Origin: Salinispora vitiensis | Lineage (GTDB): Bacteria > Actinomycetota > Actinomycetes > Mycobacteriales > Micromonosporaceae | Direction of reading: 5' to 3' | Assembly (NCBI RefSeq): GCF_000378825.1 | Contig: NZ_KB900388.1 | Location: forward strand, 4,657,901 to 4,721,900 | DNA: 64,000 nucleotides | Part shown: in pieces, positions 571 through 46,012 of the stretch | Layout of the letters: each line of letters starts with the position of its first letter | Numbering within the stretch: the stretch's first letter is position 1 | Made by a program: the position numbers and the translations under genes | The notes under the pieces: generated by a model | Databases searched by the model: none | The model's input: the letters and a program-made list of their open reading frames with translations, nothing else | What the model was told of the DNA's origin: nothing

Positions 571-744
571 TCACCTCCCCGCGGGGCAAAGGCCAACCGC
601 TCCGACGGCCTCGGTCAGCACCAGCACCGAGTCCGGCTTGCTGATCGGTTCGGTATCCGGCAGCAGCACCTGACGCACGTCGCCGGTCTTTCGAAGCTGG
701 TCGTACTCCTGCCCGAGTCGCGCGCCGGAACGGGAATCGGGGCT
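571..744 (-). pseudogene. Possible cytochrome P450 N-terminal fragment
   Basis: Directly after the TGA that ends the MAB_1171c-like gene, the same reading frame continues open for 57 codons to a second TGA. The codons have strong GC third positions. The translated piece contains YDQLRKTGDVRQVLLPD, which resembles the early Y-x-x-L-R-x-T-G-x-V-x-x-V-x-L-P-D region of bacterial class I P450s. No start codon or heme-binding region is present. It may be a remnant of a P450 gene deleted downstream, or the cut end of a longer fusion. The family assignment is an inference from a short stretch. Confidence 0.3.
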
Positions 745-1926
745 TCAGCGTTCATGAACGGACTCCGCTGGGGCGGCAACCAGCCGTATCTGTGTGAAGG
801 CGCGGGTGGTCCGGATCAGGTGGCGAATCTCGCTCTCCTCGTCGAGGGTCGGATCAGGCGGGGTTGGTCGCGCCGGCTGTGATGGTGCTGCACCAGATGC
901 CATCGCCGTCAGCCCTGCGTGGATCCGCGCGGCCTCGACCATGGCCGCGAGATCGTCACCGACGACGCCTGTGGCGTGTGCCTGCCGGCGGGCTTCGTCG
1001 CTGATTTCCTCGCTGACGTACGGCCGCAGTGCCAGGTAAGCGTCGTAGATTTCGACCACCCGGCGGTGTAGCCGGTCTCCCGGTTTCCACCATTCCGGGC
1101 CGGCAGGTAGCTTGATCCCTGGTACGGCGTCGGTAAGGGCGCTCCACAGCGGGTGGAGCTGCTGGTATCGACGCAGGGTGCGAAACATTTTTCTGACACG
1201 GCTGACCCTGGGTCCCCACACTGGCATGGTCAGGCCGACCACAACGAGCAGTGCGCCGGTGCTGGACGAAATCGGGATGATGCCTTCCCAACGAGGTGGG
1301 CTCCATCCCAAAGTGGTCGATGCGTCGAGTAGGCGTGCCACGCAGTAGACCAGTCCGACCGAGGCACCGACGGCGGTAGTTCGTAACCCTCGGCGCAGCC
1401 ACCCCGAGTCGAGGATTTCGGCGTAGGGCCAACAGATACGGACGATATCGATCAGTCCCATAGCGAATGCCGAAACATAGATGATCAGATAGGCGGCCAG
1501 CTGTGGCCGGTGGGCGTAGCTGGCTACAAAGTCGGTCGTTCGTGTCTCGGTTGGGCCGAGTTGGGTAAACAAAACGCCCAGCACTGTCACGACCACGAAC
1601 AGCGACACGATGCGGCGTCTACTCCGACGGCGAGCCACCGCTGCCGGGTTTGTCCACCCCAGCAGCAGCACTTGGATCGTGACGGAGAACCCGACCACGC
1701 ACAGGTGTGCAATCAGCGCGGTGATGTTGTCGATGCCGGTAATCCGATCGGCAAACCCCCAAACGACGGGAGTCGACATGGTGAATGTCGTCGCGAGCAA
1801 TATGAGGGCAGCGGTAACCGCATTGCGGGAGGGAGTGGCGGCGCCCTTCCGTAGCGCGGATGACAGCCGGACCACCGCTGCCACCCAGGCGACCACAGCC
1901 AACGTGGGGTAGAAGATCTCGTTCAC
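745..1926 (-). CDS. MAB_1171c-like (DUF6545-type) integral membrane protein
   Basis: The 393-residue protein has about seven hydrophobic segments in its first 250 residues, then a soluble C-terminal part (about 255-390). The C-terminal part has a conserved-looking start, LHPLWSALTDAVPGIKL, followed by a tract rich in acidic and basic residues. This layout matches the actinobacterial MAB_1171c family of putative transporters, whose substrate is not known. The GTG start (1924-1926) overlaps the stop of the ImmA/IrrE gene in a GTGA tetranucleotide, so the two are translationally coupled. These two families are commonly paired in actinomycetes. Confidence 0.75.
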   Translation of the reverse strand: MNEIFYPTLAVVAWVAAVVRLSSALRKGAATPSRNAVTAALILLATTFTMSTPVVWGFADRITGIDNITALIAHLCVVGFSVTIQVLLLGWTNPAAVARRRSRRRIVSLFVVVTVLGVLFTQLGPTETRTTDFVASYAHRPQLAAYLIIYVSAFAMGLIDIVRICWPYAEILDSGWLRRGLRTTAVGASVGLVYCVARLLDASTTLGWSPPRWEGIIPISSSTGALLVVVGLTMPVWGPRVSRVRKMFRTLRRYQQLHPLWSALTDAVPGIKLPAGPEWWKPGDRLHRRVVEIYDAYLALRPYVSEEISDEARRQAHATGVVGDDLAAMVEAARIHAGLTAMASGAAPSQPARPTPPDPTLDEESEIRHLIRTTRAFTQIRLVAAPAESVHER

Positions 1927-2573
1927 TTCTCACCTTCTCCCAGGGATTGCCAGATACGGGCCACGGTGGCTTCCGAAGTCGGGTCGTTGGACCCAGGCGG
2001 ACCCTTGTATGTGTCTATCTGCCGGCGCAGCAGGCCGGCGATGAACTCCGCTTCCCACTCGGTGCGCTCGTCATAGCCGGAGCGGCCGAGTATCGCAGCG
2101 ACCAGCTTGGGGTCAAGCTCCGGAGCCAGTAGGCGCGCGAGTTCGCTGTTGCTCAGTGCTCCGGCGAGATGGCCCGCGAGGAGGTGACCTAACTCGTGGG
2201 CAACGATGTGTCGTTGATGCAACGGGCTTGTTTGCGCATCGTAGGCAATGTAGTAGCGGTTCGGCATCGACAGCACGACACCACAAGGGGCTTGCGGAGG
2301 TAACGGCATGGGGAGCAGTGCGACCGGCCGGTCAAGATGCTCGGCAACCGCTGCGCACAGCGCCGCGGGACCATCGGCTTTCGTCGAGATCTGCAGCCCT
2401 TCGACGAATAACGTCCATCGCCGACGTTCCCGCCAACCCCTCATCGCCTTCTTTGCCTCATTCCTTGATTCCCTGTTGTCCGGGCTGCCCGGAACAGGAC
2501 TGACCTCATTCCGGTCGGTCCAAGCCTCGGGTCGACATCGTGGCTCACTCACTGACGATGCTCCACTACTCAT
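1923..2573 (-). CDS. ImmA/IrrE-type metallo-endopeptidase
   Basis: A 216-residue protein carrying the zinc-peptidase motif HELGH within IVAHELGHLLAGH, a hallmark of the ImmA/IrrE (peptidase M78) family. Such enzymes usually cleave a partner XRE-type repressor and derepress an operon. No XRE gene is visible next to it, which is unusual. The first 43 residues are polar and poorly constrained. An internal ATG at 2444 (MRGWRERRR) may be the true start, since the domain-like sequence begins there. The gene overlaps the downstream MAB_1171c-like gene by four bases, implying one operon. Confidence 0.75.
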   Translation of the reverse strand: MSSGASSVSEPRCRPEAWTDRNEVSPVPGSPDNRESRNEAKKAMRGWRERRRWTLFVEGLQISTKADGPAALCAAVAEHLDRPVALLPMPLPPQAPCGVVLSMPNRYYIAYDAQTSPLHQRHIVAHELGHLLAGHLAGALSNSELARLLAPELDPKLVAAILGRSGYDERTEWEAEFIAGLLRRQIDTYKGPPGSNDPTSEATVARIWQSLGEGEK

Positions 2574-2860
2574 GGTGTGAATCGCCGTCCATGATCCATT
2601 ACTGCCGCCATCCTGTCAGCCCCCGCGTACCTAGGGTGCCGTGACCATGAACGTTCGCGGCGTTGGATAACACGCGTGGGCCCAGTCGACTGGGCGGTGT
2701 TGCGCGGGGCAGGCGGTGGCGGGTCTTGCACGGGTGCGGCGGCGGGAGCGCTCATGGCCAAGTGCCTCGCCGCCGAGGCGCGTGCATGGCCCCCGGGGTC
2801 GCTGTCGCGCCTGGCCCGGGGCTCCGTTTCGGACAGGTGCCCGACGAGGTAACGGGTGGC
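2574..2860. other. Intergenic region, no gene seen
   Basis: This 287-base stretch separates the ImmA/IrrE gene from the DHA2-type exporter gene, both on the minus strand. Short open frames cross it on both strands but lack codon bias and recognisable motifs. It should hold the promoter of the ImmA operon, but I could not define one. Confidence 0.4.
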
Positions 2861-4324
2861 TCAGGATGCCCGACTACGTCCGTGGCGGCGGCTGCCGAGG
2901 ATCTCGACCAGGCTGGTGAGCAGGGCGGCGACGACGATACCGAGCGCCACGGCGAGTGCGTACCGAAGCGCGGTTGACCAGCGTCCGTCGTTGGCCCCGA
3001 CCGCCGCGAACAGGGTCGCGGTGATGATCGCCAGCCCCATCGCGGATCCGACCTGCCGCATGGTGCGGTACATGCCAGCGGCGCTGCCGACGTCAGGCCG
3101 GGGCACCTCCTGGAGAGTCAGCGTGTTGTTCGGTGTGATCACGAGGCCGCCGCCGACCCCGACGACTAGTAGCGTGAACCCGTTCACGATCAAGAAGGTC
3201 ATCCCGTGCAGGCCGGCGAAGGCTATCGCCATGGCGAGACTCGCCACGAGGACGATGAGTCCAATGGCCAGCAGTGGACGGCCGTAACGGTCAACCTTCC
3301 GTCCACCGAGCACGGCCCCGAGGACCGAACCGATCGCGAACGGTGCGATTGTGAGACCGGTGATCAGTGCACTGCGGTCGAGACCGTACTGCAGGTAGAA
3401 GCTGAAAATTGCCGGCAGTGGGGCAAACCCGGCGCCGATGAGGAATCCGATCAGTAGCCCTCGGCGGTACGTCCGTTGGGTGAACAGACGGAAGTCGAAG
3501 ACCGGCGGGTGGCGTCGCGCCGCCGCGGTTTCCCAGGATCGGAAGGCGACGAGGACACCGATTCCGACCGGTACCAACAGCCACGGCAGCAGCCCTTTCC
3601 ACTGTCCCTGTTGCAGGGCGGGCAGGATTACCAACATGATCCCGACGGCCAGCAGTAGCGTACCGACCAGATCGTGTTGGTGATTAGTCCGGCGTGTCGG
3701 TCTGCTCGGGAAGTACCGCCAGATGAGCACCGCCGCCGCGAACCCGATCGGGGCGTTGACGAGAAAGACCAGTCGCCAGCCATCGTCCGCCCCGCCCACA
3801 GCGATGACTATTCCGCCGAGCAGTGGGCCTAGGGCGGCGCCCGCGTGGGAGGTGGCACCGATTGCTCCGAAAGGGCGGCCTCGTTCCCCGGGGCGGAACA
3901 GCTCCTCCGCCAAAGCGTTGATCTGGGGGGTGAGGATACCGGCGGCGGCGCCCTGCAGGAGCCGGGCGACCACCAAGATGATGCCGGAGTTGGCGAGTCC
4001 AGCCATCATGTTGGCTGTGACGAACAAGGCGAGACCGAGGAGCAGGGTAAACCGTCGTCCCTTGGCATCGCCGAGCCGGCCGGCGGGGATGAGGACGAGC
4101 GCGAACATTAGCGAGTAGCCGGAGAAGACCCATTGGAGAATGTTGTTGTCGGTCCCCAGCGTGCGGTCGATCGATGGCAGCATCACGGTGACGGCACCGA
4201 GGTCGATCCAGGTGATGAACGAGACGGTCAGCGCAATGTTGAGGAACCGCCACGGCCGAGCGTAGGCGGCCGCTACCGGAACATTCGACCGGGACATCCT
4301 CACCGCCTGATCCTGCGACAGCAC
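2861..4324 (-). CDS. MFS drug:proton antiporter, DHA2 (14-TM) type
   Basis: The 487-residue polytopic protein has about 14 hydrophobic segments. The MFS loop 2-3 motif is visible as GRLGDAKGRRFTLLLG, and the antiporter-like motif C region as GAALGPLLGGIV. Length and topology fit the DHA2 multidrug exporter subfamily (EmrB/QacA-like), which moves hydrophobic compounds out across the cytoplasmic membrane using proton motive force. The outer start is GTG at 4324; an ATG at 4297 preceded by GGCGG is an equally good start. No adjacent TetR or MarR regulator is seen. The substrate cannot be inferred. Confidence 0.85.
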   Translation of the reverse strand: MLSQDQAVRMSRSNVPVAAAYARPWRFLNIALTVSFITWIDLGAVTVMLPSIDRTLGTDNNILQWVFSGYSLMFALVLIPAGRLGDAKGRRFTLLLGLALFVTANMMAGLANSGIILVVARLLQGAAAGILTPQINALAEELFRPGERGRPFGAIGATSHAGAALGPLLGGIVIAVGGADDGWRLVFLVNAPIGFAAAVLIWRYFPSRPTRRTNHQHDLVGTLLLAVGIMLVILPALQQGQWKGLLPWLLVPVGIGVLVAFRSWETAAARRHPPVFDFRLFTQRTYRRGLLIGFLIGAGFAPLPAIFSFYLQYGLDRSALITGLTIAPFAIGSVLGAVLGGRKVDRYGRPLLAIGLIVLVASLAMAIAFAGLHGMTFLIVNGFTLLVVGVGGGLVITPNNTLTLQEVPRPDVGSAAGMYRTMRQVGSAMGLAIITATLFAAVGANDGRWSTALRYALAVALGIVVAALLTSLVEILGSRRHGRSRAS

Positions 4325-4895
4325 CTACCGGGACACGGTTGGGGCTGTCTGCCTAGCCCCCGACCCGCCGCCGTAGGCCCCGGCCTGATCCTGCCGCCCC
4401 TACGGCTGTCCGCGCCGTCATCGCGTCATGAAGCGGGCACCCGCGGCCCCCGGCTCGCTCCGGGCGCAGCAAGCGCAGCAGTAGCGGTGGTCGGAGGCCA
4501 TCGTGATGTTTAGGGAAATTATCAACCATTGGCGGCGGAGCGGCGAGTGAATCGGCGATCGAGTCGATCCGGGGCCCAAGAGCTGAGCCGTTCGGGCCGC
4601 AGCTCAGTGACCTGCCCCGCACGCGGCATATCCGAGTCCACCGAGGCGGTGTTCGGTTAGCTGCGGCCGGCGTTGCGGCAGCTCGACAACCTGCGGGCGT
4701 GGCAGCAACTCGACACCGGCCCGCGCTGCCGCGCACCCTCGCGGCCACCGGACAGGTCAGCGCCACTGGCAGGCCGAAGGTCCGGCCGATGCTGCACCAC
4801 CTGATCCGGCGCCACCGAGTTAGAGAAGCCGACCTCAAGCGCGAAACATCGAGGTTAGGGTGAGGCTGTTCCACCGCACGTATACGAAGAGTGTT
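4325..4895. other. Intergenic region, no intact gene
   Basis: About 570 bases separate the divergent DHA2 exporter gene and the decarboxylase gene. Open frames crossing it show no motif or consistent codon bias. A plus-strand stretch near 4660-4850 looks weakly coding (LRQLDNLRAWQQLDTGPR) but is broken by stops and matches nothing I recognise, so it may be a gene remnant. Confidence 0.4.
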
Positions 4896-8536: not shown

Positions 8537-8907
8537 CCGGTGTTCCCCTCACCCAGCCCTCGTTCGTCAGCTCGCCAGGACAGTGCGGCCGGTACGCGTG
8601 GTGGTGGGCCATTTCCGCTTCCGCCGTACGCCGCCGTTTCGGATCACGCTAACCCACCTGAGCCAACGTGCCGGGGCAGTGAACCGAGCTCGGAAGAGCG
8701 TCGACTGCGGGCCCGACCTCGGAGGGGCCCACCGCAACCGCAGACCGTTCGTCAGTGTGGATATTGCAGGTTGCTGCGCCCCGGAGGACCTAAATCGTTG
8801 TCGGGTTTTAGACAGCTATCGATTGGGTCTGCGGGTTGCTTCATTGATTGGTGCTCTGGTTGTGTAGCCGGCTCAGAGCGTGTCACCGTGAGTGAGGAGC
8901 TGAGCGC
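8537..8907. other. Intergenic region between divergent genes
   Basis: This 371-base region separates the divergently transcribed ABC exporter and DUF262 genes and should carry both promoters. Its right half (about 8790-8860) is locally AT-richer. GAGGAG lies eight bases before the ATG at 8908. No open frame in it looks like a gene. Confidence 0.4.
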
Positions 8908-11430
8908 ATGGTCGCGGCACACGAGACGACGCTGCGGGAGCTGCTGGAGGGCGCGAAGCAGTATCGGGTACCGCTGTACCAGCGGACGTACTCGTGGACG
9001 GAACCTCAGCTTGGCCGCCTGTGGGGAGACATCCGCAAGCTGGCCGACGAGCGGGTCGAGGATCCGGACCTGACGCACTTCATCGGCTCGCTGGTGCTCG
9101 CGCCCAGCCCGACTAACGGGCCGGCGGGTGTCTCCGAGTTTCTGGTCGTAGACGGCCAGCAGCGGCTTACCACCCTGTCCATCCTGCTCTGCGCCCTTCG
9201 GGACCACCGGGCCCAGCACGAGGACCCGGGCCACCGGGACCGGATCGACCAGGAATACCTGATCAACAAATGGAAGCCCACACACCGGTTGAAGGTTGTC
9301 CCCACCCAGGCCGATCGACCCGCGTACGAGGCGTGTCTGGACGCCACTCCGCAGGCGGGCGGATCTGACCGCGTCGGTGCGGCGTACCGGTTCTTCGTGG
9401 CCCAACTCGCCGCCGTGGACGACCCGGAAGTCCCGTTGGACATCCAGCGTCTCGAGGATGCGGTCATCTCGGGGATGGCACTGGTCTCGGTCGTCGCCCA
9501 GGCCGGCGACAACGTCTACCGGATCTTTGAGTCGCTGAACAACACCGGTCTCAAGCTCACCCAGGCCGACCTGCTGCGCAACTACCTCTTCATGCGGCTG
9601 CCGAACCGTGGTGAGGAGGTCTACCGCTCGCTGTGGTTCCCGCTTCAGCAGCAGCTGGACTCCGGGGAGCTTGAGCAGTTGTTCTGGCTCGACCTGGTGC
9701 ATCGAGATCCCGGGGTCAAGCAGACCGACACCTACACCGGCCAGCAGAAGCGGCTGAACGGCCTGCACACCGAGGCGGAGATCGAGGCCGAGGTGCGTCG
9801 GTTCTGCCGGCTCGGTGCCCTCCTGCGGATCATCCTGCACCCCGAAGAGGAAGACGATCCGGAGGTACGGCGGCGGCTGGCCCGGCTCAACGCGTGGGAC
9901 ACGACCACCGTGTACCCGCTGCTGTTGCACCTGTTGGACAGCCGCGAGCAGGGGACGGCAACCTCTGAGCAGGTCGCGTCGGCGATGCGGTACGTGGAGA
10001 GCTTCTTCGTCCGGCGTCTGCTGATCGGCCGGGCGACCGCGAACATCAACCGGATCCTGCTGCGCGTCGTGACTGATATGCGTACGGACCTGCCGGTTGA
10101 CGAGGCGCTGCGGGCGTACCTGTCGGTCGGCCGGAAGTACTACGCCACCGATGCCAGCGTTCGGGAGGCGGTGCGGTCCATCCCGTTCTATCTCAACGGC
10201 CGCGCCAGCCAGCGCAAGCTCGTGCTTCGGTGGCTGGAGGAGTCGTACGCCAGCAAGGAGCCGGTGGCGCCGGACCTGCTGACCATTGAACACGTCATGC
10301 CGCAGAGCCCCACCACAGAGTGGCGACGGACGCTGAGCGAGGATCTGCAGGGCGAGGAGACCTTCGCCGAGGTGCACGAGGCTCTGGTCCACACGCTGGG
10401 GAACCTCACCCTCACCGGCTACAACGCCGAGCTGAGCAACAGCTCCTTCCTGGTCAAGCGGGCACAGCTGGGCAAGAGTGGGATCTCGCTCAACGGGGAG
10501 ATCGCCGCGCAGAAGCGCTGGGGTCGCCCCGAGATCTACGCCCGCGCCGACGCCCTCGCCGAGCGGATCATCGCCCACTGGCCGGGGCCCACCGCGGAGG
10601 CGGGCAACCGCTCCGAGGTGCCCTGGGATGTCATGAACAAGGCGCTCGCCGCGCTGCCCGCCGGCTCCTGGACGGCGTACGGCGATGTCGCCGCGCTGAT
10701 CGGCAGCCATCCCGTGCCGGTCGGGACCCGACTGGCCAACCATCCGGCTCCGAACGCGCACCGGGTGCTTCAGGCGGAAGGCACGGTGTCGCCCAACTTC
10801 CGATGGTTAGACCCCGTCCGGACGGACAACCCGTGCGACCTGCTGCACGCCGAGGGTATCGAGTTTGACAAGTACGGGCGGGCCAGCCAGGCGCAGCGCT
10901 TCGGTGTCGAGGAGCTGGCCCAGCTCGCCGGTCTGCCACAGCAGGATGTGTCGCGGAAGTTTCTCCGTCCCCGGTCCCGCCGTAGGGACGAGCTCGATGA
11001 CCGGTTCGTCGAGCAACTGACCGACCTGCAGGATGCGCGGGTTGTGGCCGGAACGCTGGGGGTCATCGAGGGCTGGGTCAAGCTGGGTGGCAGGGCGCTC
11101 TACGGCTCGGGCGGCGAGACCTCGTGTTTCCTCATGGCCCGCGGAAAGGACCACGAACTGGGCAACATCTGGCCCGCGGCGATCTACCCGAGTGGGAAGT
11201 TCGAGGTCGTGTATCAGTACATGAGCACGAGGACACCCTTCGACGACCTCGCGCTTCGCGAGGCGTTCCGCCAGCGGTTGAACGAGCTGCCGGGGGTCAG
11301 GATCGCCGCCGCGAAGCTCGCCCTTCGCCCCGGCTTTCCCCTGGAGGTCCTCGCGGACGCCAAGGCTCGCGAGGCGTTGATCGCGCATCTTGACTGGTTC
11401 TATCGGCTCGCGGTGCAACCCGGAGTCTGA
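8908..11430 (+). CDS. GmrSD-type (DUF262-DUF1524) putative type IV restriction protein fused to an alkyltransferase-like domain
   Basis: The 840-residue protein has at least three parts. Residues about 8-230 are DUF262: VPLYQRTYSW (21-30), the nucleotide-site motif DGQQR (82-86) and FESLNNTGLKLTQADLLRNYL. Residues about 430-560 are DUF1524, an HNH-like nuclease, with EHVMPQ (461-466) and LGNLTL (497-502). Residues about 570-660 resemble MGMT/alkyltransferase-like proteins, with WTAYGDVAALIG and VGTRLANHPAPNAHRVL; the usual Cys (PCHRV) or Trp (PWHRV) is Ala617. Residues about 700-840 are an unassigned domain. GmrSD proteins cut modified phage DNA; the ATL part could recognise altered guanine, which is inference. 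It stands alone, with a good RBS. Confidence 0.85.
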   Translation: MVAAHETTLRELLEGAKQYRVPLYQRTYSWTEPQLGRLWGDIRKLADERVEDPDLTHFIGSLVLAPSPTNGPAGVSEFLVVDGQQRLTTLSILLCALRDHRAQHEDPGHRDRIDQEYLINKWKPTHRLKVVPTQADRPAYEACLDATPQAGGSDRVGAAYRFFVAQLAAVDDPEVPLDIQRLEDAVISGMALVSVVAQAGDNVYRIFESLNNTGLKLTQADLLRNYLFMRLPNRGEEVYRSLWFPLQQQLDSGELEQLFWLDLVHRDPGVKQTDTYTGQQKRLNGLHTEAEIEAEVRRFCRLGALLRIILHPEEEDDPEVRRRLARLNAWDTTTVYPLLLHLLDSREQGTATSEQVASAMRYVESFFVRRLLIGRATANINRILLRVVTDMRTDLPVDEALRAYLSVGRKYYATDASVREAVRSIPFYLNGRASQRKLVLRWLEESYASKEPVAPDLLTIEHVMPQSPTTEWRRTLSEDLQGEETFAEVHEALVHTLGNLTLTGYNAELSNSSFLVKRAQLGKSGISLNGEIAAQKRWGRPEIYARADALAERIIAHWPGPTAEAGNRSEVPWDVMNKALAALPAGSWTAYGDVAALIGSHPVPVGTRLANHPAPNAHRVLQAEGTVSPNFRWLDPVRTDNPCDLLHAEGIEFDKYGRASQAQRFGVEELAQLAGLPQQDVSRKFLRPRSRRRDELDDRFVEQLTDLQDARVVAGTLGVIEGWVKLGGRALYGSGGETSCFLMARGKDHELGNIWPAAIYPSGKFEVVYQYMSTRTPFDDLALREAFRQRLNELPGVRIAAAKLALRPGFPLEVLADAKAREALIAHLDWFYRLAVQPGV

Positions 11431-17375: not shown

Positions 17376-18911
17376 ATGCAGGGGTTCTGTCAGCGGCTGG
17401 GTCGGGGTGCCGGAGGGCGCCGAGCGGGACGCACTGTCGTCGGATGGTTCGCCCTCGTGCTGGCGGTGACGGGAACGTCGGCGATCGGGGTGTCACCCGC
17501 GTCGGCGCGGCACCAGCCGGGATCGACCACCGCGTCGGCGTTCCTGCTGGCCTGGGGGAACAACGACGATGGGCAGCTTGGCAACGGGAGTACCACCGGA
17601 AGCAACGAGCCGATCGCGGTGAGCCTGCCGCTGGGCGTCACGGTCACCGCTGTCGCCGCCGGTCGGCATCACAGCCTGGCGCTGACCTCGGCCGGCACCG
17701 TCCTCGCCTGGGGCGACAACGGCTTCGGCCAGCTCGGGGACGGGACCACGACCCGGCGTACCACTCCCGTCGAGGCGAGCCTGCCGTCCGGTACCACGGT
17801 CACCGCTGTCGCCGCCGCCGAAAGCCACAGCCTCGCGGTGACCTCCGCGGGCGCCGCGTTCGGCTGGGGGCTGAACAACCTTGGTCAGCTGGGCGACGGG
17901 AGCACCGACGATCGGAGCACGCCGGCCAGTGTCGCCCTGCCCCCCGGCGCCGAGGTCACCGCGATCGCGGCCGGCAACCGCCACAGCCTGGCGGTCATCT
18001 CCACCGGCACCGCCCTGGCCTGGGGGTACAACGCTTTCGGCCAGCTCGGGGACGGGACGACCACCCACCGGAGTGCGCCGGTCGGCGTCGCGCTGCCCCC
18101 CGGTGCCGACGTTGCCGCCGTGGTGGCCGGCCGCGGCCACAGCGCCGCCCTGACCTCGGCCGGCACCGTCTTCGCCTGGGGGGACAACAGTGCCGGGCAG
18201 CTCGGAAACGGGGGTAACAGCAGCAGCAGCGAACCCCTCGACGTCAGCCTGCCCACGGGCACGACGTTCACTACCATAGCCTCCCGCGACAGCGACCACA
18301 CGGTGGTGATAGCCACCGACGGCACCGCGCTTGCCTGGGGGAGCAATGTCTTTGGCCAGCTTGGTGATGGCACCGTCAACGACTCCAACACCCCGGTGGC
18401 CGTCACCCTGCCCGCCGGTATCAGCCTGACCGCCACCGCCGTCGGCGACAACCACAGCCTGGCCCTGCCGGCTCAGCAGGTGGGCTCCGCTACGACCTTG
18501 CAGGTCTCGCCGCCGGACCCGACCGCGGATCAGGACGTCACACTGACCGCCACGGTCACCTGCGACCTCGGGGACCCGGCCGGCAGTGTCACCTTCCGCA
18601 ACAACAACACCGACCTCGCCACCGTGCCCCTGGACACCACCAACACCGCCACCCACACCACCCGGCTCCCGGTCGGCGCCAACACCCTCACCGCCGACTA
18701 CACCAGCACCACCACCGTCTGCCCGAACAGTCAGTCCGCGGCCACCACCATCACCATCGCCGACCCGGGCGATCCCACCGACCCCACCGACCCTGATCTG
18801 CCGATCACCGGGGCCAGCCTGCCCGGCCTGCTCGGCACCGCCACCCTGCTCATCCTCGCCGGTGTCAGCTTCATCTACCTCACCCGCCGACACCGGTCGG
18901 CCCACCACTGA
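17376..18911 (+). CDS. RCC1-repeat, LPXTG-anchored surface protein (copy 1)
   Basis: This 511-residue protein starts MQGFCQRLGRG, has a signal peptide ending near ASARHQ (about residue 45), then six RCC1-type repeats (AWGxNxxGQLGDG about every 52 residues) predicted to form a beta-propeller. An Ig-like domain with one Cys pair (about 375-465) follows. The end is a sortase signal: LPITG, a hydrophobic helix and RRHR. It should be attached to the cell wall. Copies 2 and 3 have seven blades, so this one lacks a blade. GGAGG eight bases upstream supports the ATG at 17376 over the longer open frame. Confidence 0.88.
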   Translation: MQGFCQRLGRGAGGRRAGRTVVGWFALVLAVTGTSAIGVSPASARHQPGSTTASAFLLAWGNNDDGQLGNGSTTGSNEPIAVSLPLGVTVTAVAAGRHHSLALTSAGTVLAWGDNGFGQLGDGTTTRRTTPVEASLPSGTTVTAVAAAESHSLAVTSAGAAFGWGLNNLGQLGDGSTDDRSTPASVALPPGAEVTAIAAGNRHSLAVISTGTALAWGYNAFGQLGDGTTTHRSAPVGVALPPGADVAAVVAGRGHSAALTSAGTVFAWGDNSAGQLGNGGNSSSSEPLDVSLPTGTTFTTIASRDSDHTVVIATDGTALAWGSNVFGQLGDGTVNDSNTPVAVTLPAGISLTATAVGDNHSLALPAQQVGSATTLQVSPPDPTADQDVTLTATVTCDLGDPAGSVTFRNNNTDLATVPLDTTNTATHTTRLPVGANTLTADYTSTTTVCPNSQSAATTITIADPGDPTDPTDPDLPITGASLPGLLGTATLLILAGVSFIYLTRRHRSAHH

Positions 18912-21143: not shown

Positions 21144-22847
21144 ATGCAGGGATTCTGCCAGCGGCGTGGCCGGGGCGGCGGAGTGCAGCCGGTGCGACGT
21201 GCGGGCGCCGGTTGGTTCTCCCTCGCGCTGGTGGTGGCGTTCTCGCCGGTGATCGGCGGAACGTCCGCGTCGGCGCACCACCAACCCGGATCGGCGCAAC
21301 ACCAACTCATCTCGACCTCCGCCAGCTCCGACGCGATCTTCGCCTGGGGTGGGAACGCCGGGGGGCAGCTGGGCGACGGGACCACGGACAACAGCAGTGA
21401 GCCGCTCGCGGTGCGCCTGCCCGCGGATACCGCGGTCGCCGCCGTCGCCGCCGGTGAACGCCACAGTCTGGCCTTGACCTCCGCTGGCACCATCCTCGCC
21501 TGGGGCAGCAACGACGACGGCCAGCTTGGTAACGGGACCACCGTCAGCAGCAGCGAGCCCGTCCCGGTGCGCCTGCCCGCGGGTATCCGGGTCGTCGCCG
21601 TCGCCGTCGGTGCCAACCACAGTGTGGCGTTGACCTCCACCGGCTCGCTGCTCGCCTGGGGTGCCAACAACTCCGGCCAGCTCGGCAACGGCACGGTTAC
21701 CAGCAGCAGCGCCCCCGTCACGGTGCGCCTGCCGGCGGGTACCGTGGTCGCCGCGGTCTCCGCGGGCCGGGACCACAACCTGGTCCTGACCGCGACCGGG
21801 CCGGCGGCCCTGCTCGCCTGGGGGGCGAACAGCGAAGGCCAGCTGGGCGACGGAACCAGGTCCGCACGCAGCGTCCCGGTCGCCGTTGCGCTGCCGGCCG
21901 GCCCCACGGTCACCGCCATCGCCGGCGGAGGCGACCACAGCCTGGCGTTGACCGTCGACGGCACCGCCCTGGCCTGGGGCAGCAATTCCCGTGGTCAACT
22001 CGGCGACGGCACCACCACGGGCCGCCTCGTACCCGTCACCGTCGCCCTGTCCGTCGGCACCGAGGCCACCGCCGTCGCCGCCGGTCGTACGCACAGTGCG
22101 GTGTTGACCTCCGAGGGAACCGCCCTCGCCTGGGGTGGCAACCAGCGGGGGCAGTTGGGGAACGGCGCCACCTCCGACAGCAGCGAACCGGTCTCGGTCA
22201 TTCTTCCGATCGGCATGCGGCTCACCGCCATCGCCAGCGGCGACAGCGACCACAACGTGGCGATAGCCGGTGACGGCAGCGCCCTGGCCTGGGGCCTCAA
22301 CTCGCAGGGGCACCTGGGGGACGGGACCACCACCGACAGCGCCACCCCGGTGGCGGTCAGTCTGCCCACCGGCACCACGCTGGAGATGATCGCCGTCGGC
22401 AACGACCACAATCTGGCCCTGCCCACCCTCCAGGCGGCCTCGGCCACGGTCTTGCAGGTCTCGCCGCCGGACCCGACCGCGGATCAGGACGTCACGCTGA
22501 CCGCCATGGTCACCTGCGACGCCGGAGACCCGGCCGGCAGTGTCACCTTCCGCAGCGACAACACCGACCTCGCCACCGTGCCGCTGGACAGCACCAACAC
22601 CGCCACCCACACCACCCGGCTCCCGATCGGCGCCAACACCCTCACCGCCGACTACACCAGCACCACCAGCGCCTGCCCCAACAGTCAGTCCGCGGCCATC
22701 ACCATCACCATCGCCGAGCTTTCCGAACTGCCCACTACCGGTCCCAACCTGCCCACCGCGTTCGGTGTGGCAGCCCTGCTCATCCTCAGCGGCGCCGCCC
22801 TCATCCACCTCGCCCGCACGCGTCGGCCCACCGGCCACCGGTACTAG
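21144..22847 (+). CDS. RCC1-repeat, LPXTG-anchored surface protein (copy 2)
   Basis: The 567-residue paralog starts MQGFCQRRGRG, followed by a signal peptide and seven RCC1 repeats (AWGxNxxGQLGxG), matching the canonical seven-bladed propeller. The same Ig-like domain follows. It ends with LPTTG, a hydrophobic segment and a basic tail for sortase anchoring. GGAGG eight bases before the ATG fixes the start. The Ig-like coding segment is nearly identical in DNA to that of copy 1, suggesting recent duplication or gene conversion. A terminator and an IS256-type element lie directly downstream. The surface role is inferred; bacterial RCC1 proteins have no settled common function. Confidence 0.88.
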   Translation: MQGFCQRRGRGGGVQPVRRAGAGWFSLALVVAFSPVIGGTSASAHHQPGSAQHQLISTSASSDAIFAWGGNAGGQLGDGTTDNSSEPLAVRLPADTAVAAVAAGERHSLALTSAGTILAWGSNDDGQLGNGTTVSSSEPVPVRLPAGIRVVAVAVGANHSVALTSTGSLLAWGANNSGQLGNGTVTSSSAPVTVRLPAGTVVAAVSAGRDHNLVLTATGPAALLAWGANSEGQLGDGTRSARSVPVAVALPAGPTVTAIAGGGDHSLALTVDGTALAWGSNSRGQLGDGTTTGRLVPVTVALSVGTEATAVAAGRTHSAVLTSEGTALAWGGNQRGQLGNGATSDSSEPVSVILPIGMRLTAIASGDSDHNVAIAGDGSALAWGLNSQGHLGDGTTTDSATPVAVSLPTGTTLEMIAVGNDHNLALPTLQAASATVLQVSPPDPTADQDVTLTAMVTCDAGDPAGSVTFRSDNTDLATVPLDSTNTATHTTRLPIGANTLTADYTSTTSACPNSQSAAITITIAELSELPTTGPNLPTAFGVAALLILSGAALIHLARTRRPTGHRY

Positions 22848-22975: not shown

Positions 22976-22999
22976 TGGACAGGACGTTGATCCTGTCCA
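22976..22999 (+). repeat. Stem-loop before the transposase start
   Basis: TGGACAGGA pairs with TCCTGTCCA across a six-base loop, 14 bases before the transposase ATG. Such hairpins in IS elements can limit transposase translation from read-through transcripts. Confidence 0.6.
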
Positions 23000-23013
23000 G
23001 GAAGGACCACGTC

Positions 23014-24276
23014 ATGGCAGACAAGAAGAGCGTTGTTCAGCTTCCGCAGCCGTCGGCGGCGGAGGTGGAGTTCGCGCAGCAGCTGGTTGAGCGGGCCAAG
23101 GCCGATGGAGTGTCGTTGGTCGGTCCGGGTGGGCTCCTCGCGGGGATCACCCGCACCGTCCTTGAATCAGCGCTCGACGCCGAACTGGATGCCCACCTCG
23201 ACGAGGTCGGCGTCGACGAGGCGTCGGGCCGGCGGGCCAACGTGCGTAACGGGCATGGGGCGAAGACGGTGCGGACCGAGGTCGGGCCGGTACGGATCCA
23301 GGTCCCTCGGGACCGGGCGGGGTCGTTCGCCCCGCGGATCGTCCCGAAGCACGTCCGCAGGTTGGACGGGTTCAACGAGGCGATCCTGTCGCTGTATGCC
23401 AAAGGCCTGACGACCGGGGAGATCTCCGCGCATCTGGCGGATGTGTATGACGCCGACGTGTCCCGGGAGTTGATCAGCCGGGTCACCGACAGCGTGCTGG
23501 AGGAGATGGAAGCGTGGCGGCAACGGCCCCTGGACCGGGTCTATCCGGTGGTGTTCATCGACGCCCTCGTGATGAAGATTCGCCAGGGGCAGGTCGCGAA
23601 CCGGCCCGTCTACGTCGTGGTCGGAATCAGCCTCGACGGGGAACGCGACGTTCTGGGTATGTGGGCCGGCACCGGCGGTGAGGGCGCCAAGCAGTGGGCC
23701 GGCTACCTCACCGAGCTACGTAACCGGGGTGTCGCCGACGTGTTCATGGTCTGCTCCGACGGCCTCAAGGGCATGACCGACGCCATTGAGCAGGTCTGGC
23801 CGCAGGCGGTGCACCAGCAATGCGTCGTGCACCTCGTACGGGCGTCACTGCGGTACACGAATCGAAAGGACTGGCAGAAGATCACCCCGGCGTTGCGGGA
23901 GATCTACACCGCCCCGACCGTCGCGGCCGCTGAGGCCCGGTTCGAGGCGTTCGCCGTCGAGTTCGGCGACCGCTACCCGGCCGTGATCCGGCTCTGGCGC
24001 ACCTCCTGGCCGCAGTTCGTGCCGTTCTTGGACTACGACCACGAGGTCCGCAAGGTCCTCTACACCACCAACATCATCGAGAGCCTGAACGCCCGGTTCC
24101 GGCAGGCCGCCCGCCGGCGGGGGCACTTCCCGACCGAGCAGGCCGCGATGAAGGTGCTCTATCTCGTCGTCCAGCAGAAACGTAAGGGCGGCGGCAGTAT
24201 CACCGGCCGGGTCTACGGTTGGGCCAAGGCCCTCAACGCCCTGATCCTCGCCTACGGCGACCGGATCACCATCTAA
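23014..24276 (+). CDS. IS256-family transposase
   Basis: The 420-residue transposase has the mutator/IS256 DDE layout. The first Asp is in VVFIDALVMKIR (D183), the second in CSDGLKGM, and the Glu in TTNIIESLNARFR. The Q-x-C-V-V-H-x-V-R region is also present (QQCVVHLVRASL). No frameshift or stop interrupts it. ATG 23014 (MADKKSVVQL) is chosen over the upstream ATG because AAGGA precedes it and the leader carries the hairpin. It should be active in cut- or copy-type transposition of the flanking element. Confidence 0.95.
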   Translation: MADKKSVVQLPQPSAAEVEFAQQLVERAKADGVSLVGPGGLLAGITRTVLESALDAELDAHLDEVGVDEASGRRANVRNGHGAKTVRTEVGPVRIQVPRDRAGSFAPRIVPKHVRRLDGFNEAILSLYAKGLTTGEISAHLADVYDADVSRELISRVTDSVLEEMEAWRQRPLDRVYPVVFIDALVMKIRQGQVANRPVYVVVGISLDGERDVLGMWAGTGGEGAKQWAGYLTELRNRGVADVFMVCSDGLKGMTDAIEQVWPQAVHQQCVVHLVRASLRYTNRKDWQKITPALREIYTAPTVAAAEARFEAFAVEFGDRYPAVIRLWRTSWPQFVPFLDYDHEVRKVLYTTNIIESLNARFRQAARRRGHFPTEQAAMKVLYLVVQQKRKGGGSITGRVYGWAKALNALILAYGDRITI

Positions 24277-44296: not shown

Positions 44297-46012
44297 CTAC
44301 TTCTGGTGGTGGGTGGACCGGTTCCGGCGGGTGAGGAAGATGAAGCTGGCGCCGACGAGGAGGAGCAGGGTGGCGGTGCCGAGCAGGCTGGGCAGGCTGG
44401 CCCCGGTGATGGGTAGGTCGGGATCGGTCGGGTCCGTGACCGTGACGGTGACGGCCTCGGACTGACTGTTGGGGCAGACAACGGTGTCGCTTGTGTAGTC
44501 GGCGGTGAAGGTGTTGGTGCCGGCGGGGAGCCGGAGGGTGTGGGTGGCGGTGCTGGTGCTGTCCAGGGGCACGGTGGCGAGGTCGGTGTTGTTGTTGCGG
44601 AAGGTGACGCTGCCGGTCGCGGGTCCGGGGTCGCAGGTGACGGTGGCGGTGAGGGTGACGTCCTGATCCGTGGTCGGGTCCGGCGGCGAGACCTGCAGGC
44701 CCGTGGCGGAGGTCGCCTGGAGCGTGGGCAGGGCCAGGCTATGGCTGCTGCCGACGGCGGCGGTGGTCACGGTGGTACCGGTGGGCAGGTTGACCGGGAT
44801 CGGGGTGTTGCTGCTGCTGGCGATGCTGGGGCCTTCGGGGTCGGGCGGGTCGTCGGTCTCGGCGCCGAGCTGACCGTAGGAGTTGTCGCCCCAGGCGAGG
44901 GCGGTTTCGGCGTCGGTTATCGCCACGGTGTGGTTGCTGTTGTTGGCGGCGATGGCGGTGAGTGTGGTGTCGTTGGGCAGGACGACCGGGACCGGGGTGC
45001 CGCTGCTGACGTTGTTTCCGTTGCCCAGCTGCCCCTGGGAGTTGTTACCCCAGGCGGCGGCGGTGCCGTTGCCGAGCAGCGCCACACTGTGGCGGTTGCC
45101 GGCGGCGACGGCGGTGACCTCGGTGCCCGGTGCCAGGGCGACGTTGACCGGCGCTAGGGCGTCGTCTTTGCTCCCGTCGCCGAGCTGGCCCTGGGAGTTG
45201 TCCCCCCAGGCGAGGGCGGTGTTTTCGGAGGTCAACGCGAGGCTGTGGGCGGCGCCGCCGGCGATCGCGGTGAGCGTGGTGCCCGGCACCAGCGCGACGT
45301 TACTCGGTTTGCTGGTGCTGTTGGTGCTCTCGTCCCCGAGCTGGCCCTGGGCGTTGTCCCCCCAGGCGAAGGCGCTGCCAGTGGCGGTCAGCGACAGGCT
45401 GTGACTGTCGCCGGCGGCGATGGCGGTGGCCGTGGTGTTCGTGGGCAGGCCGACGGCGACGGGGGTGCTGGTGTTGTCGGTGCTCCCGTCACCGAGCTGG
45501 CCGGAGGAGTTGCCGCCCCAGGCGAAGACGGTGCCACTGGAGGTCAACGCCAAGCTGTGGGCGCCGCCGGCGGCGATGGCGGTGACTTCGGTTCCGGCGG
45601 GTAGGTCGACCGCGACGGGGGTGTTGCTGCTGGTCGTGGTGCCGTCGCCGAGCTGGCCGGAGGAGTTGTCGCCCCAGGCGAGCAGGGTGCCGGTGTTGGT
45701 CAACGCCAGGCTGTGGGCGCCGCCGCCGGCGATGGCGGTGACCAGGGTGCCTGCGGGGAGGCTGACCTCGCCCGGCACGGTGCTGTTCTCGTTGTTCCCG
45801 TTGCCCAGCTGCCCCGCCTTGTTGTCTCCCCAGGACAGGGCGGCGTCTGTCACGGCGGCGGTCGTCGGTGGCTTGTTCTGCGCGAACGCGGGTGACACGA
45901 CGAGCGCCTGCGTGACCGTCACGGCCAGCGCGAGGGAGAGCCAGCTGGCGGCGGTGCGCCTAGTCTGTTGCCCTCCAACGCCTCGGCTGAGCCGTTGACC
46001 GATTCCTTGCAT
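44297..46012 (-). CDS. RCC1-repeat, LPXTG-anchored surface protein (copy 3)
   Basis: The 571-residue paralog, on the opposite strand from copies 1 and 2, begins MQGIGQRLSRG, has a signal peptide, then seven RCC1 repeats (AWGDNxxGQLG), a shared Ig-like domain and the sortase signal LPITG with a hydrophobic helix and RRNRS tail. The last propeller repeat carries a Pro/Asp/Glu insertion (DDPPDPEGPS). GGAGG eight bases upstream supports the ATG at 46012. Its upstream region shares a 21-bp identical element with copy 1. The role is unknown; a cell-wall surface location is inferred. Confidence 0.88.
   Translation of the reverse strand: MQGIGQRLSRGVGGQQTRRTAASWLSLALAVTVTQALVVSPAFAQNKPPTTAAVTDAALSWGDNKAGQLGNGNNENSTVPGEVSLPAGTLVTAIAGGGAHSLALTNTGTLLAWGDNSSGQLGDGTTTSSNTPVAVDLPAGTEVTAIAAGGAHSLALTSSGTVFAWGGNSSGQLGDGSTDNTSTPVAVGLPTNTTATAIAAGDSHSLSLTATGSAFAWGDNAQGQLGDESTNSTSKPSNVALVPGTTLTAIAGGAAHSLALTSENTALAWGDNSQGQLGDGSKDDALAPVNVALAPGTEVTAVAAGNRHSVALLGNGTAAAWGNNSQGQLGNGNNVSSGTPVPVVLPNDTTLTAIAANNSNHTVAITDAETALAWGDNSYGQLGAETDDPPDPEGPSIASSSNTPIPVNLPTGTTVTTAAVGSSHSLALPTLQATSATGLQVSPPDPTTDQDVTLTATVTCDPGPATGSVTFRNNNTDLATVPLDSTSTATHTLRLPAGTNTFTADYTSDTVVCPNSQSEAVTVTVTDPTDPDLPITGASLPSLLGTATLLLLVGASFIFLTRRNRSTHHQK

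Follow-up and report, generated by a model that had tools for sequence, protein, structure and literature searches.

A GmrSD-family protein with two C-terminal additions

We analysed a 64,000-nucleotide stretch of DNA from the marine actinobacterium Salinispora vitiensis (hereafter the window; contig NZ_KB900388.1, positions 4,657,901 to 4,721,900) that carries, on the forward strand at positions 8908–11430, an 840-amino-acid open reading frame (ORF) with an ATG start, encoding a GmrSD core followed by an alkyltransferase-like (ATL-like) domain and a further C-terminal domain. ORF calling and comparison with relatives indicate that the gene is real and conserved: five relatives match nearly the full length of the protein at 63–83% identity, and its C-terminal third is 95% identical in Salinispora oceanensis (L001), the nearest named relative in that part. 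Long frames on the opposite strand, such as 8752–10761, are an effect of high GC content, and reading the reverse strand gave no grounds for preferring them. An NCBIfam scan of the protein returned no family, and the best PADLOC matches, the GmrSD-like models 'Orf5' (1.2e-135) and 'HEC-06' (3.3e-60), whose meaning the library does not state, were not used as evidence. Among 82 surveyed sequences (the window, L084–L163 and L005), 54 encode a protein longer than 600 residues that combines a GmrSD core with an ATL-like domain; in another, L162 (G516:C61), the GmrSD-ATL gene is split over several frames.

The core consists of a GmrS-like DUF262 domain (GmrSD_N, residues 10–228, positions 8935–9591; Pfam PF03235, E 3.6e-34) and a GmrD-like DUF1524 HNH nuclease domain (GmrSD_C, residues 414–552, 10147–10563; PF07510, E 4.9e-24), the interval between the two Pfam matches forming a linker (residues 229–413, 9592–10146). 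The DUF262 motif serves in nucleoside triphosphate (NTP) binding and DUF1524 in HNH cleavage (PMC10952713, PMC4619093), with DGQQR assigned to the NTP pocket in work on GmrSD, BrxU and SspE (PMC10952713). Here the conserved VDGQQR at residues 81–86 conforms to the (I/V)DGQQR of the GmrSD family, and DGQQR itself (residues 82–86, 9151–9165) is identical in 53 of the 54 proteins and gapped in the remaining one. EHVMPQ lies at residues 461–466 and LGNLTL at 497–502, and E461, H462, P465, Q466, N499, N506 and K517 of the HNH domain are invariant in 54/54 relatives. Through the N-terminal domain, the protein matches the Protein Data Bank (PDB) sequences of SspE (1.6e-7) and of a DUF262 protein (1.5e-13). 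On both sequence features, DUF262 DGQQR and DUF1524 HNH, the protein belongs to the GmrSD family, and the GmrSD core recognised from motifs in the initial annotation is confirmed at the residues given there.

The third domain has an alkyltransferase-like fold

Residues ~570–664 (10615–10899) were assigned to the ATL/MGMT family by Pfam, by a profile match to Schizosaccharomyces pombe Atl1 and by the fold of an AlphaFold2 (AF2) model. PF01035 (DNA_binding_1, MGMT) matches residues 578–650 at E 2.2e-5 and 24.6 bits, below the cut-off of 27; the same site scores 29.1 bits, above the cut-off, in a family search of the organism's own genome. Relatives L126 (27.1 bits), L127 (34.3), L149 (27.1), L130 (28.4), L117 (31.5) and L218 (36.3) pass the cut-off, and L128, L132, L133, L134 and L136 fall short of it. 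A profile of 48 fused domains out of 75 ATL-like segments, with zero Trp-type ATLs (A4), placed Atl1 (3gva, 1.5e-8) and the Vibrio parahaemolyticus ATL (2kif, 2.3e-7) at the top of the PDB chains, followed by alkylguanine alkyltransferases (AGTs). This profile replaced an alignment containing six Trp-type ATLs (A3), which was dropped for the homology claim; an hhalign comparison of A4 with the McrB-type protein L146 was not used because A4 itself contains L146, which makes the comparison circular.

The AF2 model of residues 564–840, built with 28 of 42 rows, has a predicted local distance difference test score (pLDDT) of 86.9 and a predicted template modelling score (pTM) of 0.61. Foldseek matched it to 2kif with probability 1.00, though at E 0.013, and VIA gave a Z of 10.4 to DNA-bound Atl1 (3gx4; 3.6 Å over 97 residues) and 8.7 to the V. 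parahaemolyticus ATL. Profile and fold matches alike correspond to the C-terminal fold of AGTs without their N-terminal domain, as in ATLs. On the profile, the cut-off-level matches in several relatives and the predicted fold, the third domain is MGMT/ATL-like; the MGMT-like region that the initial annotation had located at about residues 570–660, with Ala617 in place of the Cys or Trp, thus holds up by all three routes.

The alkyltransferase-like domain has an altered pocket

Residue counts come from A3, which contains 41 of the 75: the six Trp-type ATLs, included for comparison, and 35 fused domains. Two of the Trp-type ATLs, L143 and L155, belong to frames of 448 and 470 residues in which Pfam recognises nothing else, and we assume that they stand alone. 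The region contains WTAYGDVAALIG at residues 588–599, and Ala617 (10756–10758) lies within PNAHRVL at the position of the reactive Cys of AGTs and the Trp of ATLs. Where AGTs have the reactive Cys in PCHR, the window protein has NAHR; ATLs have lost the Cys too, but most have Trp there (6/6 of the Trp-type set, and the aligned PDB sequence of the V. parahaemolyticus ATL), whereas 27/35 fused domains have Ala. We take TTHA1564 to be an Ala-type ATL. The passage concerned in PMC7216122 does not state this.

ATLs are defined in part by an arginine finger and a Tyr for base flipping (PMC10779285). The window domain retains the Tyr (Tyr591, 10678–10680, the equivalent of Tyr114 in human AGT; Tyr in 31/35 fused domains and 6/6 Trp-type ATLs) but has Val603 (10714–10716) at the finger position, where Arg occurs in 4/35 fused domains and in all six Trp-type ATLs. 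Other pocket residues persist among the fused domains, His618 in 26/35, Arg619 in 35/35 and Glu649 in 31/35, and residue 588 is Trp in every fused domain and Val in every Trp-type ATL. A lid insertion, F631-R-W633 (10798–10806), occurs only in fused domains (F631 in 25/35, W633 in 26/35), the W633 column being gapped in 6/6 Trp-type ATLs. The window domain thus shares with S. pombe Atl1 and the V. parahaemolyticus ATL the fold and the pocket Tyr, His, Arg and Glu, and differs in having Ala for Trp, Val for the arginine finger, a longer FxW lid and fusion to a nuclease.

As judged from these residues, the domain is neither an AGT, the Cys being missing, nor a standard ATL, the arginine finger being missing. 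Ala617 and the arginine-finger counts exclude alkyl transfer by the fused domain and indicate that the classical base-flipping wedge is absent in most members, which keep part of the pocket and carry an added aromatic lid. The initial annotation proposed that the protein reads alkylated or otherwise modified guanine; with the Cys/Trp and arginine finger lost and the FxW lid inserted, it is doubtful that alkylated guanine is read in the way known for ATLs, and the proposal is in that respect unsupported as it was put, while plain DNA binding would be compatible with the same changes. Conservation of the domain matches that of the core: over 42 proteins, mean pairwise identity is 0.63 for the ATL-like domain, 0.64 for each of GmrSD_N and GmrSD_C, 60% for the linker and 0.56 for the C-terminal domain, and W588 and R619 are invariant across the 54 GmrSD-ATL proteins. 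This argues that the domain is retained even though it is incapable of alkyl transfer.

The main rival to a reading role builds on the same losses: the domain might be a mere winged-helix grip on DNA that neither flips nor reads bases, specificity residing in the DUF262/DUF1524 core. The arginine finger is lost in 31/35 fused domains and the Cys/Trp replaced by Ala in 27/35, as a plain grip would allow. L129 also fits, since it keeps the core and the C-terminal domain around an ATL-like stretch that is degenerate (no phmmer match at 1e-3; hhalign probability 91 over 50 columns). A grip, however, need not keep pocket residues, so the retention of Tyr591, His618, Arg619 and Glu649 at the frequencies above counts against it, as do the aromatic lid added only in fused domains and the fact that McrB-type proteins carry related domains upstream of their GTPase. 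We consider it rather unlikely that the domain does no more than grip DNA.

A CxxC pair immediately ahead of the pocket motif (columns 612 and 614 in the numbering of the window protein) occurs in 7/35 fused domains (L128, L130, L132, L133, L135, L136 and L137), which without exception belong to the NucS-like and RAMA groups described below; it is a possible zinc site, and the window protein lacks it.

The C-terminal domain has a possible double-wing fold

The C-terminal domain (residues 691–840, 10978–11427), the most variable part of the protein, was left without a family in the initial annotation, and in Pfam scans of 30 of its 44 members it still has no convincing one, the best match being FeoC in one member at E 0.0019. 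A profile of the domain found only chance-level matches among PDB sequences, and hence no sequence relative. The AF2 model is confident (pLDDT 96.1, pTM 0.90). All Foldseek E values for it are weak (lowest 0.30; MotA 5jlt at E 0.92, probability 0.51), and VIA realignment ranks three T4 MotA entries first: 1kaf at Z 6.5 (the MotA C-terminal domain; 3.4 Å over 102 residues), 6k4y at 6.3 and 5jlt at 5.9, with the next unrelated entry at 4.6. The YjbR-family structure 2a1v reached Z 5.0 in the two-domain model. MotA and YjbR, the best structural matches, have middling Z and no sequence similarity that we found; the MotA C-terminal domain and YjbR are both described as 'double-wing' DNA-binding folds (PMC6755090, PMC7641849). 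The predicted resemblance to the MotA double wing is a lead, suggestive only. A structure search of BFVD with the domain was uninformative: the highest probability was 0.60, at E 0.76, and the smallest E value 0.33. DUF4268 (PF14088), another C-terminal addition of GmrSD proteins, had zero Pfam matches in 30 members, and hhalign against the DUF4268 region of L126 came up empty; as the latter is a weak test, made with a single sequence, DUF4268 is kept as a less likely candidate for the domain.

Related domains occur on other restriction effectors

Residues 565–840 were matched in 43/394 genomes in a search of the class and in 43/160 in a search of the genus, and no relative was encoded in the phage records searched. 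The C-terminal domain is present in 42/54 GmrSD-ATL proteins and missing from 12. Among those 12, RAMA scores above its cut-off in all three that were scanned (L132, L135 and L137), and L126 carries DUF4268.

Six McrB-type proteins (L114, L140, L142, L146, L147 and L150) also have an ATL-like domain. AAA_5 is found in 6/6, and the overlapping next gene encodes McrC (PF10117) in 6/6; phmmer E values between the window domain and these proteins are 4e-11, 5e-11, 3e-7, 2e-7, 2e-4 and 4e-4. Five further carriers (L128, L130, L133, L134 and L136) have a probable PD-(D/E)XK N-terminus in which R-L-D and E-L-K are invariant. NucS_C is under the cut-off in all four of these that show it (2.9e-4, 0.0053, 0.0038 and 0.066) and is unlisted for L130 at 0.001; a PDB profile search for the group reached NucS at 0.066 only. 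L127 has an ATL-like domain above the cut-off with no clear partner domain, and L149 has no recognised partner, its tree label 'PDDEXK' being unsupported.

In a 73-row tree, a 100/96 branch separates the 67 fused domains from the six Trp-type ATLs, and the partner labels need 11 changes against a minimum possible of 6, with 33/69 inner branches unresolved and several long. The fragments L122 and L162 and rows with a match under ~70 residues were omitted. The searches were seeded with the GmrSD protein, which biases the GmrSD share high; the information lies in the other 13 rows. Actinomycetota is the only phylum whose whole genomes were searched with the ATL profile; that search matched 186/396 genomes, mostly through short frames resembling ordinary repair proteins, with few strong matches in long frames, and was not used. 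From these domain matches, related ATL-like domains occur on GmrSD, GmrSD-RAMA, McrB-type and probable PD-(D/E)XK (NucS-like) partners, the McrB assignment being the weaker.

Relatives of the gene lie in defence islands

In the window, the gene is flanked by ABC-transporter-like and acyl-CoA-ligase-like genes, named by eye from sequence. We compared neighbourhoods of the 54 GmrSD-ATL genes, L005 and L148 yielding none. The neighbour cluster seen most often, in 23 regions, is a helicase of ~717 residues, some copies being cut by the region edge; it matches Pfam UvrD and PADLOC GajB, and Pfam gave no RelE family for it at E 0.5. ArmD is a UvrD helicase with a RelE-like N-terminus (PMC12458937, preprint), and the likeness of the neighbour helicase to ArmD is judged from its helicase part, its length and inspection by eye. 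Among the other neighbours there were matches to DrmMI, DrmD/DpdE/BrxH and DruE models, and 3 of 10 neighbours scanned matched nothing.

A match to at least one of seven marker proteins, DISARM-, ARMADA- or Druantia-like or GajB-like, is present in 23/29 same-genus regions of full architecture, the exceptions being the window, L084, L085, L088, L105 and L111. Markers also occur in 8/25 other GmrSD-ATL regions (six of the 25 also from the same genus) and in 7/22 non-GmrSD regions, compared with 0/19 control regions taken from the same genomes at a distance of 1 Mb. The relatives of the window gene thus lie in defence islands, and together with the conserved NTPase and HNH motifs this bears out the defence role that had been suggested for the protein. 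A 47% identical copy on a Streptomyces plasmid has an integrase 4 kb away and, at ~6 kb or five annotated features, a type I-E CRISPR cas operon.

ARMADA type II (PMC12458937, preprint) has parts resembling the neighbours of the relatives: GajB-like UvrD, YprA and SNF2 helicases and a PglX-like methylase. Its linked genes (YprA, SNF2 helicase, PglX-like methylase and UvrD-RelE helicase) were not matched in the window at E 0.01 and are present near relatives.

These neighbourhoods bear on two further explanations. One holds that the C-terminal domains serve a partner and not DNA, the protein in relatives forming a two-gene system with a GajB/ArmD-like helicase, and the window copy being an orphan or using a distant helicase in the same genome. 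A complete same-strand helicase gene lies 26 to 126 bp downstream in 13/29 same-genus regions, and the same genome encodes, in L217 (C1:1582000-1601000), an ArmD-like UvrD helicase (36% identity) adjoining a YprA-like helicase at 1.59 Mb, whereas the window starts at 4.66 Mb. However, this arrangement is absent from the window and from L084, its closest relative, although the protein is intact and conserved, and the helicase in L120 lies on the opposite strand; we judge a partner-only role to be unlikely. The other would make the protein a damage-surveillance nuclease that detects base alkylation in the DNA of its own cell and starts repair, as in fusions of AGT with endonuclease V. The C-terminal part of AGT is already known fused to an endonuclease, and stand-alone ATLs feed lesions to excision repair (PMC10779285). 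Against this stand three other PF01035 proteins with stronger scores in the same genome, the sparse distribution in the genus (43/160 genomes), the defence-island neighbours of the relatives, the plasmid copy near a cas operon and the McrB/McrC and RAMA partners, which together make a repair role very improbable.

Several arrangements were observed in passing. The two-gene unit of GmrSD-ATL and a GajB/ArmD-like helicase within 200 bp occurs in L086, L087, L089, L092, L094, L095, L097, L098, L100, L102, L103, L104 and L106; these 13 loci have no YprA match in the 17–19 kb around them and are possibly a compact defence system. The McrB-ATL/McrC pairs of L140, L146 and L147 lie near PglX-like methylase genes, that of L140 also near an SNF2 helicase, similar to a DISARM-like cassette near McrBC mentioned in the ARMADA preprint (PMC12458937). 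In L093 (15946–18873, reverse strand), an SNF2 helicase beside the GmrSD-ATL gene matches PADLOC DpdE over its full length (1700 bits), and in L124 the genes upstream of GmrSD-ATL (721–4717) were read by eye as type III CRISPR Cmr/Cas10-like proteins. Elsewhere in the window, we noted by eye three related RCC1-like repeat proteins (WGxNxxGQLGxG; 17457–18911, 21183–22847 and 44300–45922). A transposase-like ORF at 22987–24276 is presumably of the IS256 type. At the left end (748–2276), a small protein with a HELGHLL zinc-peptidase-like motif, which we take to be ImmA/IrrE-like, lies beside a membrane protein.

Discussion

In type IV enzymes a specificity domain is combined with a nuclease; in Escherichia coli McrB that domain is N-terminal (PMC11090510). 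We propose that the window protein is a single-chain, modification-dependent type IV enzyme of the GmrSD family whose specificity comes at least partly from the ATL-derived and probable double-wing additions, a reading that we consider moderately probable. It is built on observed features: the domain identities, the catalytic motifs, the lost alkyl-transfer and arginine-finger residues, the sharing of the domain and the defence context of the relatives. We infer modified-DNA reading, the order of events and cutting as follows. Both C-terminal domains would first engage modified foreign DNA, the ATL-derived domain probing for a modified base without chemistry and the probable double-wing domain gripping the DNA; NTP binding and hydrolysis in DUF262 would then couple recognition to a conformational change, and the DUF1524 HNH domain would finally cut. 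Three things make a reader our best guess for the ATL-derived domain: where it sits on McrB-type proteins, its conservation despite the loss of chemistry, and its occurrence alongside RAMA and the probable double-wing domain. O6-alkylguanine as the ligand is possible but not favoured: it arises through DNA damage, we know of no phage modification of that kind, and the domain lacks the arginine finger.

Several observations weigh against this proposal. The survey of homologues for associated defence genes that the initial annotation called for found such genes near relatives, but the window gene itself has no recognised defence gene within four genes by gene calling; seven marker proteins were also unmatched across the 64-kb window (tblastn, E 0.01). 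The island markers were picked from the same regions after inspection, so their count is descriptive and not a test. The double-wing match falls below Z 8, a range in which the VIA notes allow chance. PF01035 tops the McrB-type segments in 6/6 cases yet always under the cut-off (E 5.4e-5 to 0.03), and two of the six phmmer matches have E values of only 2e-4 and 4e-4. The loss of the arginine finger in 31 of 35 fused domains means that base flipping may be lost too, and the degenerate stretch in L129 suggests that the ATL-like domain is not always needed. To our knowledge, characterised enzymes of the GmrSD family such as BrxU have no ATL-like or double-wing additions, so such additions may not set specificity. 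Enzymes of this kind, BrxU among them, already act on modified cytosine (PMC10952713).

The fusion of GmrSD with PF01035 is not in itself new: Machnicka et al. described PF01035 as an extra domain in GmrSD homologues in 2015 (PMC4619093), along with DUF4268, the add-on seen here in L126. The portion of that paper that we consulted is silent on the missing Cys and arginine finger, the fold of the fourth domain and the sharing with McrB, RAMA and NucS-like proteins. SspE reads phosphorothioate through an N-terminal patch (PMC10952713). GmrSD, BrxU and SspE share the DGQQR and HNH core with the window protein. We know of no ATL-like or double-wing domain in these three. EVE/PUA domains (PMC7641849), winged-helix 6mA sensors (PMC11037411) and RAMA are likewise small DNA readers found on several nuclease types, and their folds differ from that of the ATL-like domain. 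Word searches covered the main texts of PMC11090510, PMC7641849, PMC10952713, PMC11037411 and PMC12458937: 'methylguanine', 'MGMT' and 'alkyltransferase' are absent from PMC7641849, 'alkyl' from PMC11037411, and 'GmrSD' and 'DUF262' from PMC12458937. Literature searches and the open-licence main texts searched gave no report of an ATL-like domain on McrB, RAMA-GmrSD or NucS-like proteins. What looks new is the altered residues and lid, the double-wing likeness, the sharing of the domain with other restriction proteins and the defence-island context of the relatives.

More tentatively, we suggest as a possibility, and one that we think somewhat improbable, that the ATL-derived domain is a separate, recurrent reader of modified bases in type IV restriction, captured from repair, shuffled in Actinomycetota and detecting a phage purine modification. 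Alkyl transfer and, in most members, the arginine finger would have disappeared, an aromatic lid would have been acquired, and the domain would have spread to GmrSD, McrB, RAMA-GmrSD and NucS-like nucleases, taking a place beside PUA/EVE/SRA, winged-helix and RAMA readers; together with the MotA-like double wing of the window protein, it would let one enzyme read both base and groove. As a guess, a 7-deazaguanine-type hypermodification would suit a guanine pocket.

How GmrSD enzymes discriminate modified from plain DNA is poorly understood, and a detachable, repair-derived reader on several effectors, if that is what the domain is, would allow a clean swap or deletion test. If so, it may also point to guanine-side phage modification beyond the known readers, and it would extend the AGT/ATL fold from repair to immunity.

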